From contig JAVJRG010000005.1 of NCBI GenBank assembly GCA_040218535.1, positions 124,001-188,000 of the forward strand: a stretch of DNA of 64,000 nucleotides, written 5' to 3'. This document shows, piece after piece, positions 2,356-21,146 of the stretch. A program made the position numbers and the translations under genes. Within the stretch, counting starts at the first letter, position 1, and each line of letters starts with the position of its first letter. A model generated the notes under the pieces. That model had not been told where the DNA came from. It saw only the letters and a program-made list of their open reading frames with translations, and did no database searches. This DNA is from Lacipirellulaceae bacterium (GTDB lineage: Bacteria; Planctomycetota; Planctomycetia; Pirellulales; Lacipirellulaceae).

Positions 2356-4386
2356 TCAGTCTGCGGCTTGCTCGATCTTCTCCGACTTTACCTCGAATTG
2401 GTAAGTCCATTCGTCAAAGTAAAGGTTGCGGCCATCGATCTCGATCTCGCCACGCTGGAAGTCGTTCGGCTCGCTGCGGAAACTCGTCTTGGGCGGCGCG
2501 AGCTCTCGGGCGTAGTCAAGATTGACAATCAACCGATACGGGTCGGCGTGCCCGCAGAGGAAATCACGGACCCGAGGATCGGCGTGGTCGCGGGCGCCGT
2601 GTGACGCGTCGGCGGGGAGCCAGCCCCACGGCTCAATGTAGACCTCCGACCAGTCGTGCATGTTTTCGCTGCCGGGTTGCGTCTGCCAGCCGCTCTGCCA
2701 ACGAGCCGGTACGCCGGCGGCGCGGCACAGCGTAACAAACACAAGCCCCTGCACGCCACAATCGCCGCGTCGGGCGGCCAGTCCTTTGGTGGAAAGGCTC
2801 GGGATGATGCTGTATTCCATCTCCGCACACCACGGAATGTTCACTGAGACCCAACGAAAAATCAGCCGGGCCTTCTCAAGCGGGTTGCTCTCGTCGCCGA
2901 CAATGTTCTTGGCCAGCCGCCGAACGCTCGGGGGCAGGGCGATGTGTGGTAGCCGCTCTGCCGTGTAGCGGCGGTAAAGTTCGCTCGACGTGTCGTAGGG
3001 CTCGACCGTCGCCGGGTCGAGTCGCGGAATCCACGCTGACGTCAAGTACTCGAACTCAATCTCAAAACGGAGCGGCGTGTTTGTGTCGGTGATGGTCTGC
3101 TCAAAGTAGACGCTTCGATGGGGCGCACCGTTCGGCGCGATGGAATGATGCTTTGGTGTCGACTTCAGCAATCGGACCTCGCGCTGCTGGCGGTACTCTT
3201 GCGGGAACGGCAGCCATGCACGGACAATGGCCCCACGCCGCACAGCCGGGCATTCAGGCTTCACCTCGAGGCGATAGCGAACGCGTTGCCGAATCGGAGA
3301 GACGCTCGGCTCGTCGGCCGCTTCAGACAACTCGACCAGCTCGGCAATATGGCTGGTAAGGTCGAACCCCTTGCCCGCTGGTGCCGCCTGTCGACGCATC
3401 CGCGCGTCATCATTGAAGCGGTACAGGTTCGACACGGCCCGCCGGAAGTAACGCGGCGAGCCGTCGATCACGCGGTACTGCAAGTCTCCCGCGTCGCGCC
3501 ACCGCATGAGATCGGCGAGTGTCGCGTCGGGTATCGATTCGCGGATCTGCTGCAAAACCGTATCGGTCGTGAGAGAGAAATCGTGCCGGACGCGGCGGAT
3601 CAGCTCCAGTTGAATCGCTGGGTCGTGCGTGGCAAGATTTTCTTTAGCCTCGACTTGCTGACTGAGCGCCGACTCGGCCTCAGAATACCGTCCTTCGGCA
3701 ATGAGCGTGGCAATCTGCGGCGCTAGCTGATCGGCCGTTTCCACAGAGTCGGAGTTCAGCCGGCAAACGTAGGTCTGCTCGCGCGAGACGGCGCCACGGC
3801 CTTTCGGGTCATCACTGAAGTACTCAGTGCGGTCGCCGATACCATCGGTCGATTTTTGCGAACTCCGGTAGCGGAAGCCGACCAGCACGCCGTCCTCCTC
3901 AACCGGCTCAAGGAAAACGACGCTGTGCCCCGATCCGCTCTGTCGCCAAAACTGGACGAAGTCGCCCGACTTAGCGTCGGCCAGGTCGACCGCACGGCCG
4001 ATGCCTAGCGACTCAACAGCTAACACGCAGAGTGACTTGTCGCCTGGCTTGCCGTCGCCATACCAGAGTTTCTGGAAACGCCTGAGGTCGTCGGCGGTCT
4101 TTCCTTTGAAAAGGCCTCGCGTTTTCGCTACCTCGGTCGCGATCGACAGCGTGTAGCCACAGCAGATGGTACCGTCGCCTTTCGCCAAGATCACCTCGCC
4201 ATCGAACTCGATCGCAGCAGGCGTACCGGAATTGCCCTTAACCCAGTTGTAACCGCCACCGTCCGGATAGCTGTACGCCTGCGTCAAAACATCGTTGGCG
4301 ATCACTTCACCGGCGCAAAGCACGGCTATCGCAGCGAGAAGAGCCGGCAGGCGGCAAGAGACCAGAATCCAAGAGACCTGAATCAT
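2356..4386 (-). CDS. Exported protein with NlpC/P60-like and transglutaminase-like domains
   Basis: A 676-residue protein with an N-terminal signal peptide (hydrophobic residues 6-25, then AGEVIA). Residues about 65-165 look like a papain-like NlpC/P60 or CHAP fold: Cys75/Cys76 in TICCGYT begins a helix and His154 in SGHSVVFLEP begins a strand. Residues about 480-600 form a transglutaminase-like core with a complete Cys-His-Asp triad: Cys543 in RGDCGVQ, His577 in MHDWSEVYI, Asp593 in PADAS. The middle (360-450) resembles the beta domain preceding many bacterial transglutaminase-like cores. It probably hydrolyses or cross-links peptides outside the cytoplasm. The gene stands alone. The second domain is firm; the first is inferred from motif pattern. 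Confidence 0.8.
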   Translation of the reverse strand: MIQVSWILVSCRLPALLAAIAVLCAGEVIANDVLTQAYSYPDGGGYNWVKGNSGTPAAIEFDGEVILAKGDGTICCGYTLSIATEVAKTRGLFKGKTADDLRRFQKLWYGDGKPGDKSLCVLAVESLGIGRAVDLADAKSGDFVQFWRQSGSGHSVVFLEPVEEDGVLVGFRYRSSQKSTDGIGDRTEYFSDDPKGRGAVSREQTYVCRLNSDSVETADQLAPQIATLIAEGRYSEAESALSQQVEAKENLATHDPAIQLELIRRVRHDFSLTTDTVLQQIRESIPDATLADLMRWRDAGDLQYRVIDGSPRYFRRAVSNLYRFNDDARMRRQAAPAGKGFDLTSHIAELVELSEAADEPSVSPIRQRVRYRLEVKPECPAVRRGAIVRAWLPFPQEYRQQREVRLLKSTPKHHSIAPNGAPHRSVYFEQTITDTNTPLRFEIEFEYLTSAWIPRLDPATVEPYDTSSELYRRYTAERLPHIALPPSVRRLAKNIVGDESNPLEKARLIFRWVSVNIPWCAEMEYSIIPSLSTKGLAARRGDCGVQGLVFVTLCRAAGVPARWQSGWQTQPGSENMHDWSEVYIEPWGWLPADASHGARDHADPRVRDFLCGHADPYRLIVNLDYARELAPPKTSFRSEPNDFQRGEIEIDGRNLYFDEWTYQFEVKSEKIEQAAD

Positions 4387-15935: not shown

Positions 15936-17260
15936 TCAGCCGAACACGCGCTCAAGTAGCTCGTCAGTCAGCCAGACCTGCTCACGTACGTCGACTTGAT
16001 TGAACACCGCGTTTACTTCTTGCGTGTCGTCAGTTGCGCTCGCTGGGACGATTGCGGACTTCACGTGGCTTTCGCTTACAACTGGTTCAGAGAGTGGTTT
16101 CGCAATCAACGCGATAGTTTCTGATTCGGCTAGCTCGTGTCGAATCTGGTTATGTTCAATCGCTGCGTCAATCAGTTCAAGCCTTGTTCGCTCTGTCGTA
16201 TGGACTTGAGCCTGCTGCACAGGCGGACTTGTTGCTGCTTGGAACTGTAGCGCCGCTTGCTGGGAGTTCTTTTGCCAAGTGAGAAAGTCGAGGCCGTCAG
16301 CGTCGCCATCTTGGTCAGCATCAGCGACGGCGCCGCTTGAGGTGCCGTAGTCTCCTTTCCAGAGGTTGAGGTCGGCTTGATCGACATTCCCGTTGACGCC
16401 GAAATCACCAGGCAAGTCTTGAACAAATGTAGCCGTCGTTAACGCCGACCATTGACCATTAAAGAGAGCGCGAGCCTGAATCGTTTGGCCATTGCCTGGC
16501 GTAATCGGAGAGTTGTAAACCTGCGCTGAGCTCAAGTTGATGCCGCCACCGATCGCACGCGGATCTGAACCGTCGAGCGTGTAATAGATTGCCCCCTGCG
16601 CTGCCGAAATCTGTAAGGCAAAACCTGAGGAAATCGTCCCGCCATACTGGTTGTAAGATGGCGCTGAAATGGTCGGGTAAAGCAAGCCTCCTTGAAGCTG
16701 ACCTAGTACAAGCGAATTTCGGCTGCCGAAGTAGCTGCCGGTAATCGAGTTGATCTCGTTCTGCCAATGGGTCTTGTTGCGTGGCGTATTGCGGACTGAA
16801 TCACCCCAACGGGCCGATTCGGCGATAATGCCTGGCTCGACCTGCGCTGCACGAGCCAAGATAAGAGCCTGACTCGCCGCAGGAGTCATCACCCCGCCGT
16901 CGAACATGTGTAGCCGTACGCGATCCGCGAAGGCGAGTCGATACTCAGGGCTGGCCAATAAGTCTTGGTGGAGGAACCCGGGATTAAACTGCGAGAACAG
17001 TCTATCGTTGCTGCTCGTGAAAGGCTCTGTGCGATCGATATTGTTGCTGAAGTTTGCGCCTAACGAGTGCTCGTTGTCGTGAATAAAGAACTGAAATCCG
17101 TGGTCGTTGGTCACTCGGTTGCGGATGCCGAACCAGTTGTTTGCCTTTTCATCTGCTAGAAACTGCGAAATCCCTGTATCGAACGCACCCGTGGAAAAAT
17201 CGTAAGCATGTAGTCGGCAAGATTCTCGACATCGAGCAAGATGGGGAGGCGAAGCTATCA
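15936..17260 (-). pseudogene. CotH-kinase/dockerin-type surface protein remnant, frameshifted and truncated
   Basis: The C-terminal 430 codons are intact: the end of a CotH-like domain (NNWFGIRNRV, FQFFIHDNEHSLG, IIAESARWGDS), then a chitobiase-like beta domain (IYYTLDGSDPRAIGG), then a dockerin-like segment with DxDxDxD calcium loops (ADADQDGDADGLDFLTW) and a long tail. The expected upstream motif, DVENLADYMLTIF, is present at about 17198-17240 but in another frame. The break falls near the A5 tract at 17195-17199, and a TGA-TAG pair closes that frame about 10 codons further upstream. The N-terminal kinase core is therefore missing as well as frameshifted. Full-length relatives are large exported proteins. 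Confidence 0.7.
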
Positions 17261-17407
17261 GTGCGATCATGCTCTTCGAGCCGGCTCCAAAAGATGGAAG
17301 TAAGCCCGACTGTAGATGGCAATTGATTCCCTGCGGCCGTTTCAGGAGCGCTTAGCAACTCACCCAATCGGCGAGGAGTTTACCTTTGTTGGGTGGATGA
17401 GGACTTT

Positions 17408-17423
17408 TGGCACGTAGCTTGCA
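17408..17423 (+). promoter_or_regulatory. Sigma-54 promoter, full consensus match
   Basis: TGGCACGTAGCTTGCA matches TGGCACG-N4-TTGCW at every defined position, preceded by a T run (TTTTGGCAC). It points away from the CotH remnant. Transcription would start near 17435. No convincing gene follows until 17897, and a hairpin with terminator features lies at 17626-17678. The transcript could thus be a short RNA of about 240 nt, or the leader of the DUF1549 gene. Confidence 0.6.
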
Positions 17424-17434
17424 TAAGACTTACT

Positions 17435-17680
17435 AGCCGCCAAGCAGCGGCCCTGATTCGCCGGAACACGAATCATGGGGCCGGGACAGAGAAGAGGCAC
17501 TGCAACTGGGCCGGCAAGAGAAGAAGCAGCAACCGCAAGACCTTTGAAAGCAATAGTTTAGGGCGTTTTTCGACTTAATTACCCTCCCCGTAAGTCGAGG
17601 AACTCCCGCTCAAAGGTCACGTTCAAGGCGGGTCTGGGATGCACCTGAAGAGGCATTCCCAGGCCCGCCTGTTGCTTTTG
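17435..17680 (+). ncRNA. Candidate sigma-54-dependent short RNA, tentative
   Basis: The segment is bounded by a consensus sigma-54 site and a GC-rich hairpin followed by a T-rich stretch. It contains an internal hairpin (TCGACTTA at 17570-17577 with TAAGTCGA at 17591-17598). It also holds a 28-codon frame (17475-17561) with only a weak ribosome binding site. No known RNA family was recognised. The extent is inferred from the flanking signals. Confidence 0.3.
17626..17678 (+). terminator. Terminator-like hairpin
   Basis: The arm AGGCGGGTCTGGGATGC (17626-17642) pairs with GCATTCCCAGGCCCGCCT (17653-17670) with one bulge and one mismatch. It is followed by GTTGCTTTTGG, a weak U-tract. Confidence 0.55.
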
Positions 17681-17896
17681 GTGTGTTGCAAAATTGAACA
17701 CTTGGGCGATTTTGCTTCACCTCGAAATAGAACATTTGCGGTTTGCCTATCCTGATTGGCAAGTCGATCACTAGGCTCCAACTTTTAGCCGCGTTGAAAT
17801 CTCAAGGCTGCGTTTCCAATCGCTTTTCAACTTCCTGTACGATAGAGGGTAGAGATAGCCAGCTCGACATCTCCAGAAAGCACTCGACGGGGCATT

Positions 17897-19723
17897 ATGC
17901 GTTTCACTTGCCAGACATTAGGTCGCAAACACACGGTCAACCTGTTACGCGTCTTGTTGGCGACGCTAACTGGCTTCGCCGTCATGCTTTCTTTCGCACA
18001 CTCAGCAAGTGCAGAGGATTCAGCTCGCGACTCCAGCGCTCAGTTCTCCAGCCAACTGATTGACGACCTCATCACGAGGGGTTGGAAGGAATATGGCTTC
18101 GCACCTTCGAAAGAAGCCACCGACACTGAGTGGTGTCGGCGCTTGTATCTTGATGTGCTTGGTCGCATTCCAACGGTCGAGGAACTAGAGAGCTTCACCA
18201 ATCAGAAACGAACGGCTGACCGTGATGAAAAACTAGTCGAGAAGCTCCTAGGACCCGAGTACGTCGACGAGTACGCACGCAACTGGACCACGATTTGGAC
18301 CAACACGCTCATTGGTCGCACCGGTGGCACGGATCGCCGTGCGTTAACGAGCCGTCCGGGCATGATGCAGTACCTGGAAAGAGTGTTGCTTGAGAACAAG
18401 CCCTATCACCTGATGGCTCGCGACCTGATCACGGCCACAGGCGATGCTCGGCCTGATATGGAAAACTTCAACGGGGCGGTCAACTTCTTGGTCGAGAAGC
18501 TCGATGAGAATGGTGTCCAAGCCACGGCGAAGACCTCCCAGATTTTCCTTGGCATGAACGTCCAATGCACTCAGTGCCATAATCATCCATTCAACGAGTA
18601 CCAGCAAAATCAGTTCTGGGAACTCAACGCCTTCTTCCGTCAAACGCGAAACGAGATTGAGCGGATGATGGACGACGACAATCCAAAACCTTTCGCAACA
18701 CTTATCGACGACAACTTCGGTGGCGAAGGGCGCATGTTGGGTGATCGCCGTCGCGAGGTCGTGCTAGAAATGCGTGACGGCAAGCTGGTCGATCGCGACG
18801 CGGCAAGCGTACACGCAGCACCCACTTATTACGAACTTCGCAACGGCCAAGTCCGCGTCGCCTACCCCGTATTTGTGGACGGCACCTCACTGGCGGAAAA
18901 GTACGCCGACAAAGGCGAAGACTACGGCAACAGCGGGGCAATCGAGCAGATTAACCGCCGCGCTGAGCTCGCCGAGATGATTCTTGATGCAGATCAGTTT
19001 GAGCAGGCCTTAGTGAATCGCTATTGGGCACATTTCTTTGGCCACGGCTTTACCAAGCCGATTGACGATATGGGGCCTCATAATCCTCCCTCGCACCCTG
19101 AGTTGCTCGAGCAATTAGCTCAAGACTTCCGGCGTTCCGAGTTTGACCTCAAGGGCCTGATTCGCCGCATTGTTCTGAGCAAGCCTTATCGACTCAGCAG
19201 TCGTATGAATAGCAGCAATGCCGAGGACGATCCGGCGTTGGGTCGGCCACCCATGTTCAGCCGTTTTTATGTTCGCCAAATGCAGGCAGAGCAGTTGTTC
19301 GATTCATTGTTGATCGCGACCGAAGCCGATGCCCAGGCTACGAGTGATAAGAATCGCGACATGATGAAAGCTCGCTGGCTCCGTCAGTTCAGCACGGCTT
19401 TTGGTAATGATGAAGGCACGGAGTCGACCAGCTTCAATGGTTCGATCCCCCAAGTGCTAACGCTCATGAATGGCGATCTCACAAAGAAGGCCATCCGCAC
19501 GAAGGGAGAGAGCTTTCTTGGACGTGTTGCGAACGACACTTCTCTGAGCAACGCTCAGAAGTTTGAATATTTGTACAAGGCGGGGCTCAGCCGCAAGCCC
19601 TCGAAAGAAGAACGCAAGGTTTGCAATCAGTTGCTCGCCAGTCGCAAGGGCGATGTGGCTGGGACTTTGCAAGACGTGTGGTGGGCGGTGTTGAATAGTA
19701 ATGAGTTTATTTTGATTCACTAA
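17897..19723 (+). CDS. DUF1549/DUF1553 domain protein
   Basis: A 608-residue exported protein of a family greatly expanded in planctomycetes. A signal-like segment (VLLATLTGFAVMLSFAHSASA) is followed by DUF1549 (about 45-245: EWCRRLYLDVLGRIPTVEEL) and DUF1553 (about 340-600: ALVNRYWAHFFGHGFTKPID and PSHPELLEQLAQDFRRSEFD). The motif CTQCHNHPF near residue 223 could bind one c-type haem, but the separate N-terminal cytochrome domain of larger relatives is missing. It is followed by a DUF1501 gene, its usual partner; together they are thought to act outside the cytoplasm, with unknown substrate. The sigma-54 site lies about 470 bp upstream. Confidence 0.88.
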   Translation: MRFTCQTLGRKHTVNLLRVLLATLTGFAVMLSFAHSASAEDSARDSSAQFSSQLIDDLITRGWKEYGFAPSKEATDTEWCRRLYLDVLGRIPTVEELESFTNQKRTADRDEKLVEKLLGPEYVDEYARNWTTIWTNTLIGRTGGTDRRALTSRPGMMQYLERVLLENKPYHLMARDLITATGDARPDMENFNGAVNFLVEKLDENGVQATAKTSQIFLGMNVQCTQCHNHPFNEYQQNQFWELNAFFRQTRNEIERMMDDDNPKPFATLIDDNFGGEGRMLGDRRREVVLEMRDGKLVDRDAASVHAAPTYYELRNGQVRVAYPVFVDGTSLAEKYADKGEDYGNSGAIEQINRRAELAEMILDADQFEQALVNRYWAHFFGHGFTKPIDDMGPHNPPSHPELLEQLAQDFRRSEFDLKGLIRRIVLSKPYRLSSRMNSSNAEDDPALGRPPMFSRFYVRQMQAEQLFDSLLIATEADAQATSDKNRDMMKARWLRQFSTAFGNDEGTESTSFNGSIPQVLTLMNGDLTKKAIRTKGESFLGRVANDTSLSNAQKFEYLYKAGLSRKPSKEERKVCNQLLASRKGDVAGTLQDVWWAVLNSNEFILIH

Positions 19724-19871: not shown

Positions 19872-21146
19872 ATGACCATGCACTCATCACCACGCACCTC
19901 CGGAATGTCCCGCCGTCACTTCATGTCACACCTGGCCGGTGCTTCGGCGCTCGCCGGGCCTGCTTGGGCATTCACCAATACGCTCCGCGCGAACGCGGCG
20001 ACACTTAAGAAGAATCAGAAGTCGTGCATTATGTTGTGGATGGGTGGTGGTCCGCCAACGATTGATATGTGGGATATGAAACCCGGCGCGACGACCGGCG
20101 GCCAGTTTAATCCGATCGCCACCACCGGTGAATCGCAAATTAACGAGCTGATGCCGAAGCTCGCTGAGCAGATGAAGCACCTGTCGGTCGTGCGTTCGAT
20201 GAGTACCCGTGAAGCGGACCATACCCGCGGCACCTACTACATGCGTACCGGCTACGTGCCGAATCCCAACATCGAGCATCCTAGCTACGGGTCGGTCGTG
20301 GCACACGAAATAGGAACGAAAACGAAGGGCTTGGAAATCCCACCTTTCGTCGCAATCGGCGGCTCGGGAGGCGGGCCAGGATTCCTGGGCATGACTTACG
20401 CGCCGTTCCAAGTCAATTCCAACGGTCGCATGCGGGACATGCAAATGGGCGTTGAGGATTGGCAACTCGCGGATCGGATGAAGCTGCTGAGCCTTCTGGA
20501 ACGCCGCTTTGTCAATCAGAAACGTGGCCCCGCACCGGAAGAACACGCCAAAGTGCTCGAAAGCACTCTGCAGTTGATGACAAGTGAGCAGTTGGTTGCC
20601 TTTAAGGTGGATCAAGAGCCGCAAGCGATGCGCGATCGCTACGGCAACGATTCGCTCGCCCGCAGTTGCCTGCTTTCGCGTCGCCTCGTGGAAGCAGGCG
20701 TACCTTTCGTTGAAGTGAACTTTGGCGGATGGGACTTGCACCAGAATTGCTTCACGTCGCTCGAAGAAAAATTGCCTCGCCTGGATCATGCACTGGCGAC
20801 GCTGACTCAAGACCTAAGCGAGCGTGGTTTGCTGGACGATACGGTGATCGTCTGCATGGGCGAGTTCGGACGCACTCCGCGTATCAACGAAAACGCCGGT
20901 CGCGATCACTGGGCACGCAGTTGGAGCGTCTTGGCCGGTGGCGGCGGACTCGCCGGGGGGCGGGTGATCGGTTCAACCAACGCCGATGGGACCCAAGTCA
21001 CCAGCGAGCCCTACAGCAGCGAAGATCTAATGGCTACCGTCTGCCAAGCGATGGGCATTTCGTTGCAGACCGTGTTCACGGCGAACAACGGTCGACCGAT
21101 GAAGATTGCGAACAGCGGGAAACTCATTGAAGGGCTTATTGCTTAA
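19872..21146 (+). CDS. DUF1501 domain protein with Tat-type signal
   Basis: A 424-residue protein beginning with a twin-arginine signal (SRRHFMSHLAGASALAGPAW), so it is probably exported folded by the Tat system. The remainder matches the DUF1501 / sulfatase-like fold of planctomycetes. Motifs include MLWMGGGPPTIDMWDMKP, EADHTRGTYYMRTGY, FVEVNFGGWDLHQN, and VIVCMGEFGRTPRINENAGR with DHW, which resemble the metal site of the alkaline phosphatase superfamily. It is co-oriented with the DUF1549/1553 gene, its standard partner, 148 bp upstream across an inverted repeat. The reaction is unknown. Confidence 0.92.
   Translation: MTMHSSPRTSGMSRRHFMSHLAGASALAGPAWAFTNTLRANAATLKKNQKSCIMLWMGGGPPTIDMWDMKPGATTGGQFNPIATTGESQINELMPKLAEQMKHLSVVRSMSTREADHTRGTYYMRTGYVPNPNIEHPSYGSVVAHEIGTKTKGLEIPPFVAIGGSGGGPGFLGMTYAPFQVNSNGRMRDMQMGVEDWQLADRMKLLSLLERRFVNQKRGPAPEEHAKVLESTLQLMTSEQLVAFKVDQEPQAMRDRYGNDSLARSCLLSRRLVEAGVPFVEVNFGGWDLHQNCFTSLEEKLPRLDHALATLTQDLSERGLLDDTVIVCMGEFGRTPRINENAGRDHWARSWSVLAGGGGLAGGRVIGSTNADGTQVTSEPYSSEDLMATVCQAMGISLQTVFTANNGRPMKIANSGKLIEGLIA

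Follow-up and report, generated by a model that had tools for sequence, protein, structure and literature searches.

A putative sigma-54-activated RNA sponge and its CU-rich partner RNA in the Pirellulales

Two small RNA genes of the Pirellulales are conserved, co-occur across the genomes of the order, and carry a dedicated complementarity to each other. One of them follows a sigma-54 promoter in the window (the whole stretch of DNA that was analysed, 64,000 nt long), and the other, which we call the partner RNA, lies elsewhere in the genome (Table 1). Judging from their sequences, we consider it likely that the first RNA is a sigma-54-activated sponge, or decoy, of the second, a CU-rich small RNA that would be made constitutively. 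In the cell, the sigma-54 RNA probably titrates the partner in response to stress or nutrient signals.

Table 1. Features of the two RNA genes and of their surroundings (positions in the window unless stated otherwise)
Feature	Position	Strand	Basis or remarks
444-aa ORF with Fn3_assoc/CHB_HEX_C_1 domains	15936-17270	-	upstream, opposite strand
Sigma-54 promoter TTGGCACGTAGCTTGCA (-24 GG / -12 GC)	17407-17423	+	consensus match, conservation in relatives
Non-coding RNA (putative sponge)	~17435 to ~17680	+	ends inferred; alignment, fold, covariance-model matches
5' hairpin, loop GGAACA (17463-17468), complementary to partner UGUUCC	17451-17478	+	inverted repeat 17451-17460/17469-17478
Pairing site 1 GGGGCCGGGACAGAGAAGAGGC	17477-17498	+	22 contiguous predicted pairs (one G-U) with the partner
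Pairing site 2 GGGCCGG..GAGAAGAAGC, bipartite copy of site 1	17507-17528	+	predicted duplex -31.5 kcal/mol
Central two-part hairpin, C-rich loop CCCTCCCC (17582-17589)	17539-17618	+	stems 17539-17547/17610-17618 and 17561-17577/17591-17607
Terminator hairpin with weak U-tract; loop holds GAAGAGGCA (17647-17655)	17626-17680	+	covariation
Tandem TGT-N11-ACA sites TGTTGCAAAATTGAACA-CT-TGGGCGATTTTGCTTCA, second degenerate here	17684-17719	.	proposed activator-binding sites
DUF1549/DUF1553 (PSCyt2/PSD1) gene, usual downstream neighbour	17897-19723	+	Pfam E 2.5e-41 and 3.1e-39
DUF1501 gene	19872-21146	+	Pfam E 1.8e-106
Partner RNA	G000:C12:1402001-1402162 (L021:704-860), outside the window	+	conserved promoter, near-invariant segment, terminator

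The sigma-54 promoter and the RNA that follows it

The sequence TGGCACGTAGCTTGCA (17408-17423, forward strand) is the only match without mismatches to TGGCACNNNNNTTGCW (TGGCACN5TTGCW) in the 64-kb window, which agrees with the consensus -24/-12 site of the original prediction, and it is kept across relatives. The site by itself is weak proof because matches with up to two mismatches are about as frequent in the window as chance alone would give (36 vs 34.9 expected); the proof lies in its conservation. We searched 96 relatives by BLAST using positions 17290-17900 as a query. The homologue from the same genus aligns over 17405-17704 (79%), which spans exactly the region from promoter to terminator, and more distant relatives match the 3' hairpin only. 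This hairpin alone located 14 relatives, in a search where the promoter played no role, and all 14 loci have a -24/-12 site with at most two mismatches upstream of the common motif (a perfect TGGCAC-N5-TTGC in nine). Among 39 non-redundant loci, TGGCAY-N5-TTGC is kept in 34 and GG-N10-GC in 38, a count biased by the use of the promoter in finding part of the set. Lack of conservation of these bases in close relatives had been named as an argument against the promoter; the comparison gave the opposite outcome. The promoter stands at a fixed place before the RNA, and the genome encodes RpoN (PF04552, E 6.5e-62).

The pattern formed by promoter and motif occurs in 11 stretches of named genomes, all labelled as planctomycetes, including Rhodopirellula sp., Bythopirellula polymerisocia, a Thermoguttaceae, and a Pirellulales MAG. 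We made a covariance model from the first 130 nt of the sigma-54 RNA, promoter included, and took its counts as evidence of presence only, since it includes the promoter and the fold computed for it has no meaning. The model matches 116 of the 296 sampled genomes of the order (Pirellulales, as judged by its named members), almost always with a single match in each. Among 294 genomes drawn from across the phylum, only four had a match, all from the same order, and no sigma-54 RNA outside the order was found in that draw. The match in one genome (G090) is the antisense of the partner RNA itself. We rejected the idea that the locus is a repeat or a mobile element, since it is present in a single copy in the genome.

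We estimated both ends of the RNA: a start about 12 nt after the -12 GC, and an end at the T-run that follows the terminator hairpin. The fold of this strand over 17435-17700 beats that of 200 out of 200 shuffles (z -4.95). There is no convincing coding sequence in the spacer between the minus-strand ORF and the gene at 17897, as had been observed initially. The 28-codon frame proposed within the RNA did not survive the comparison: it is not conserved, because the spacers between conserved blocks change in length by numbers that are not multiples of three (a verdict drawn from alignments, with no codon test). The Rfam 15 covariance models gave no match to 17200-17950 up to an E of 5.

The terminal hairpin with its weak U-tract, seen from the start, is real. 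It has 14-bp arms (17626-17639 and 17657-17670, 93% complementary) followed by the weak U-tract TGTTGCTTTT, and it covaries across homologues: 11 pairs of the 15-bp consensus stem show compensatory (both-side) changes over 22 loci. Nearly all homologues share this weakness of the U-tract behind the hairpin (consensus CGCCTGTT...TTTT), which speaks against the sponge reading, and a simple terminator scan did not call the hairpin at 17626-17680. An internal hairpin also exists, but it is larger than the 8 bp at 17570-17598 initially described, with 17-nt arms nested inside a second, 9-bp stem. Each of the six consensus pairs of this central hairpin is changed on both sides in some sequence, yet broken pairs are found too. 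CCTCCC occurs in 27 of 39 homologues, within the hairpin loop for most of those folded, and the C-rich loop CCCUCCCC is displayed by the central hairpin in most homologues that have this hairpin. The loop of this genome, CCCTCCCC, resembles the anti-Shine-Dalgarno loops of other regulatory RNAs.

In summary, the original prediction of a short regulated RNA made from an activator-dependent promoter, to be checked by comparing this spacer across relatives, is supported by an order-wide promoter, conserved RNA motifs, and a covarying terminator hairpin.

The partner RNA and its complementarity to the sigma-54 RNA

The most conserved block of the sigma-54 RNA (17477-17498) is also matched elsewhere in nearly every genome of the order, as revealed by BLAST. 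At this second locus, the block sits on the strand opposite to a second small gene, that of the partner RNA. The gene has a promoter of the form TGGACA-N15-19-TA...T. A variable stretch, usually of 60-110 nt, separates this promoter from the near-invariant GGCCTCTTCTCTGTTCCGGCCCC, which is followed by a terminator, CCCCGTCG...CGGCGGGGTTTTTT. Of 35 loci, 30 have the promoter pattern on the sense strand, and none has it on the antisense strand. The predicted promoter is housekeeping-like and the predicted terminator is canonical, with a compensatory change in its stem (CCCCATCG/CGATGGGG at L019). The near-invariant segment of 23 nt, GGCCUCUUCUCUGUUCCGGCCCC, is CU-rich and essentially confined to the order. 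A model of the last 64 nt of the partner gave strong matches (E<1e-10) in 143 of the 296 genomes of the order. None of the partner loci matches Rfam at the gathering score, the only matches being at chance level (E>3). The gene adjoins an inositol monophosphatase gene, and homologous neighbours flank the partner in 28-31 of 32 loci. Its promoter, invariant segment, and terminator are those of an independent sRNA gene, from which transcription is predicted. By these sequence criteria, the partner is a putative small RNA that is order-wide and previously unreported.

The predicted 22-bp duplex between site 1 and the partner has an energy of -49.9 kcal/mol, vs -26.1 +/- 2.9 for 1,000 shuffles of the sigma-54 RNA (best shuffle -37.1), and is thus about 8 sd beyond them. 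The sigma-54 RNA therefore has the extended complementarity to an sRNA pairing region, beyond chance, that characterises RNA sponges. GGGGYCGG-N-GAAGAGGCA is present at the position of site 2 in most homologues. A third candidate site, in the terminator loop, gives a duplex of -27.9 kcal/mol that is no better than shuffled. The sub-motifs GGAACA and GAAGAGGCA are repeated in the sigma-54 RNA and are complementary to GGCCUCUUCUCUGUUCCGGCCCC. In both genomes tested (this one and a congener), matches to the 20-nt core with up to three mismatches are confined to two loci, those of the two RNAs. We searched for enriched 6-mers in the 39 non-redundant homologues with the main pairing site masked. 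The top ones—AAGAGG (48 vs 4.2 expected), AGAGGC, and GAAGAG—are all complementary to the partner, GGAACA is enriched as well (28 vs 3.3 expected), and all partner-complementary 6-mers sum to 312 observed vs 64 expected. Several partial copies of the site are thus kept in the homologues, which is what a decoy would be expected to show. We sought variants of the partner segment for a coevolution comparison and found the segment to be practically invariant. Both RNAs are partly structured on their own, which counts against the sponge reading.

The pairing of two RNAs does not reveal which of them is the regulator. The sigma-54 RNA could be the effector and pair with the Shine-Dalgarno regions of mRNAs through its loop CCCUCCCC; the constitutive partner would then be its inactivating antagonist. 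We kept this explanation because the loop could indeed pair with Shine-Dalgarno sequences, and it is favoured by CCTCCC, which 27 of the 39 homologues have, in most cases as part of a stable hairpin's loop. However, the C-rich loop is absent in about one-third of the homologues, whereas the segments complementary to the partner are near-universal. Furthermore, the paired segment of the partner is far more constrained than the sigma-54 RNA, as expected of a hub with many targets. We regard this role of the sigma-54 RNA as quite improbable.

The two genes co-occur across the 296 genomes: 95 have both, 10 only the sponge, 48 only the partner, and 143 neither (Fisher p 4e-29, a statistic that ignores the relatedness of the genomes). 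The 10 sponge-only genomes are mostly incomplete assemblies. About one-third of the partner-positive genomes lack a sponge match, which counts against the sponge reading. A motif search identified further, diverged sponges with sigma-54 sites in two partner-only genomes (G049 and G453); the other near-matches in partner-only genomes were rejected. A chance sigma-54 match combined with a shared motif of other origin, such as a mobile element or a protein-binding sequence, would fit the chance-level frequency of two-mismatch -24/-12 matches in the window and the presence of a related CGGAACAGAGAAGAGG at three loci that share a GAGGGGCCTCGTCT hairpin, one of which lies next to a transposase-like end. 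Such a coincidence is nevertheless scarcely credible given the order-wide conservation, the fixed arrangement, the single copy per genome, the covarying terminator, and a motif that runs in opposite directions in the two RNA genes. L176, L182, and L184 have CGGAACAGAGAAGAGGGTAGA followed by a GGGGAGAGGGGCCTCGTCTCCCCC-like hairpin, in one case next to the end of a transposase-like coding sequence; this is possibly the end of a mobile element unrelated to the RNA pair.

Neighbouring genes, tandem sites, and a proposed mechanism

Of the 49 loci analysed, a set that counts some places twice, 41 have a DUF1549 homologue downstream of the RNA in the same orientation. Such strong synteny counts against the sponge, because an RNA acting in trans does not require it, and favours the other possibility raised by the original prediction, a long leader of the DUF1549/DUF1501 genes. 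If the RNA were a regulated 5' leader of this operon, the hairpin would be an attenuator and the pairing of the CU-rich sRNA would alter termination or decay, thereby controlling the operon. The weak conserved U-tract after a strong stem is consistent with read-through; the tandem sites described below also fit, as does the lack of an obvious second conserved promoter between the RNA and the DUF1549 gene in the part of the alignment listed. On the other hand, a leader should be found with the same operon, in the same orientation, at every RNA locus, and we find otherwise. The RNA is intact in the absence of the DUF1549 operon in Bythopirellula (L039, convergent DUF3485), L040 (convergent VWA), L042 (arginine decarboxylase), and L045 (convergent ParA), and thus it does not depend on this operon. 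The 15-bp covarying terminator has no visible alternative antiterminator, and about 215 nt of unconserved DNA precede the start codon. Hence, the synteny expected of a leader holds in most loci, but its generality does not, and we consider a leader unlikely. A mixed form, with a sponge plus leaky read-through, is possible, and at loci with the operon downstream, leaky termination could plausibly give the RNA a second role in cis. The upstream neighbour also varies: in L037, L040, L041, and L047 it is an ABC transporter and not the Fn3_assoc/CHB_HEX_C_1 ORF.

The tandem sites (consensus TGTatCAAAATtGAACA-N2-TGTtccATTTtGaTACA) lie directly 3' of the terminator. A strong downstream match is found in 35 of 37 homologous loci with a matrix for which 29 of these dyads were the training set; the remaining dyads still score well above any upstream site, and no site of this type occurs within 300 bp upstream of the promoter in the 37 loci. 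We rejected an RNA hairpin at this place: the two arms show no covariation within loci beyond shuffles (138 of 2,000 shuffles are as good), and for this reason we read the sites as DNA-binding sites. The double site was not found elsewhere in the four genomes searched, the copy of this genome being too degenerate for the pattern. It is retained in three loci without a downstream DUF1549 gene (L039, L040, and L042). The tandem sites probably bind an activator, and we infer an enhancer-binding protein acting from a downstream position. The enhancer sites of AAA+ activators are usually 80-200 bp upstream.

In the sponge mechanism that we propose, such a protein would occupy the tandem sites just downstream of the RNA and activate the RpoN polymerase, leading to transcription of a sponge of about 245 nt that would stop at the hairpin 17626-17680. 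The 22-nt site, the second, bipartite site, and the shorter loop sites would base-pair with GGCCUCUUCUCUGUUCCGGCCCC. This would sequester the partner and cover its CU-rich segment, thus freeing its mRNA targets. The composition of this segment would suit pairing with purine-rich translation-start regions. A search for such targets with a 14-nt core in two genomes gave extra matches that were not common to both, and we called no target. In a genome with no detected sponge, we observed a partner-complementary site with two mismatches that precedes the start of a secreted-looking protein by about 50 nt (L181, G404:C119, ~3859-3878, minus strand), a candidate mRNA target of the partner.

We put forward a broader scenario more tentatively. 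The two RNAs might form a core, order-wide circuit of the Pirellulales, in which a constitutive sRNA restrains a broad set of mRNAs through its frozen 23-nt segment and an RpoN-controlled sponge with multiple sites releases them, with activator sites downstream and maybe leaky transcription into DUF1549/DUF1501.

Comparison with known systems

The analysis provides two conserved RNA genes at once, with a concrete predicted pairing and a predicted class of inducer (RpoN plus one activator), and the named matches include cultured test organisms (Bythopirellula and Rhodopirellula relatives). The RNA pair is also a handle on the function and control of many DUF1549/DUF1501 gene pairs; R. baltica has 41 copies each of DUF1549 and DUF1553 (PMC2754498). 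We found no description of a base-pairing sRNA in planctomycetes within the literature searched. RNA sponges and sigma-54 sRNAs are already known; this RNA pair is new. By analogy, its nearest precedents would be CrfA/SisA and QrrX/Qrr for the mode of working and CrcZ/CrcY for a titrating RNA under sigma-54 control.

GlmY and GlmZ of enterobacteria are a sigma-54-linked sRNA pair in which one acts as a decoy. GlmY titrates the protein RapZ by mimicry and is thus a protein decoy, whereas we propose a decoy that acts by base pairing. CrcZ and CrcY of Pseudomonas titrate the Hfq/Crc system, not an sRNA. In Vibrio, it is the sponged Qrr RNAs that are sigma-54 products, whereas here it would be the sponge.

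Like CrcZ and CrcY, the RNA described here is predicted to be a sigma-54-dependent titrating RNA. CbrB activates crcZ and crcY by binding TGTTAC/GTAACA subsites 20-25 bp apart, and the TGTTGC...GCAACA sites are similar in style, but the CbrB sites are in the promoter region while these are about 265 bp downstream of the promoter (PMC6296734). QrrX of Vibrio cholerae, switched on by the LysR-type QrrT, is a sponge of Qrr1-4 (PMC9732341). QrrX resembles the sponge predicted here in that it comes from an independent small RNA gene and inactivates regulatory sRNAs by pairing with them (PMC9732341). CrfA of Caulobacter crescentus is a starvation-induced sponge of the SisA-D (alpha-r8) sRNAs (PMC12559287). 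We found no sequence relation of either of our RNAs to this system (no Rfam match). In both cases, a dedicated small RNA pairs with the conserved core of its sRNA partners, which are abundant in the case of CrfA, and relieves their targets, which is a prediction for the Pirellulales (PMC12559287). CrfA has no known activator, involves Hfq, and binds four sibling sRNAs with one described site (PMC12559287), whereas the putative sponge of the Pirellulales has a sigma-54 promoter, several sites, and one partner RNA.
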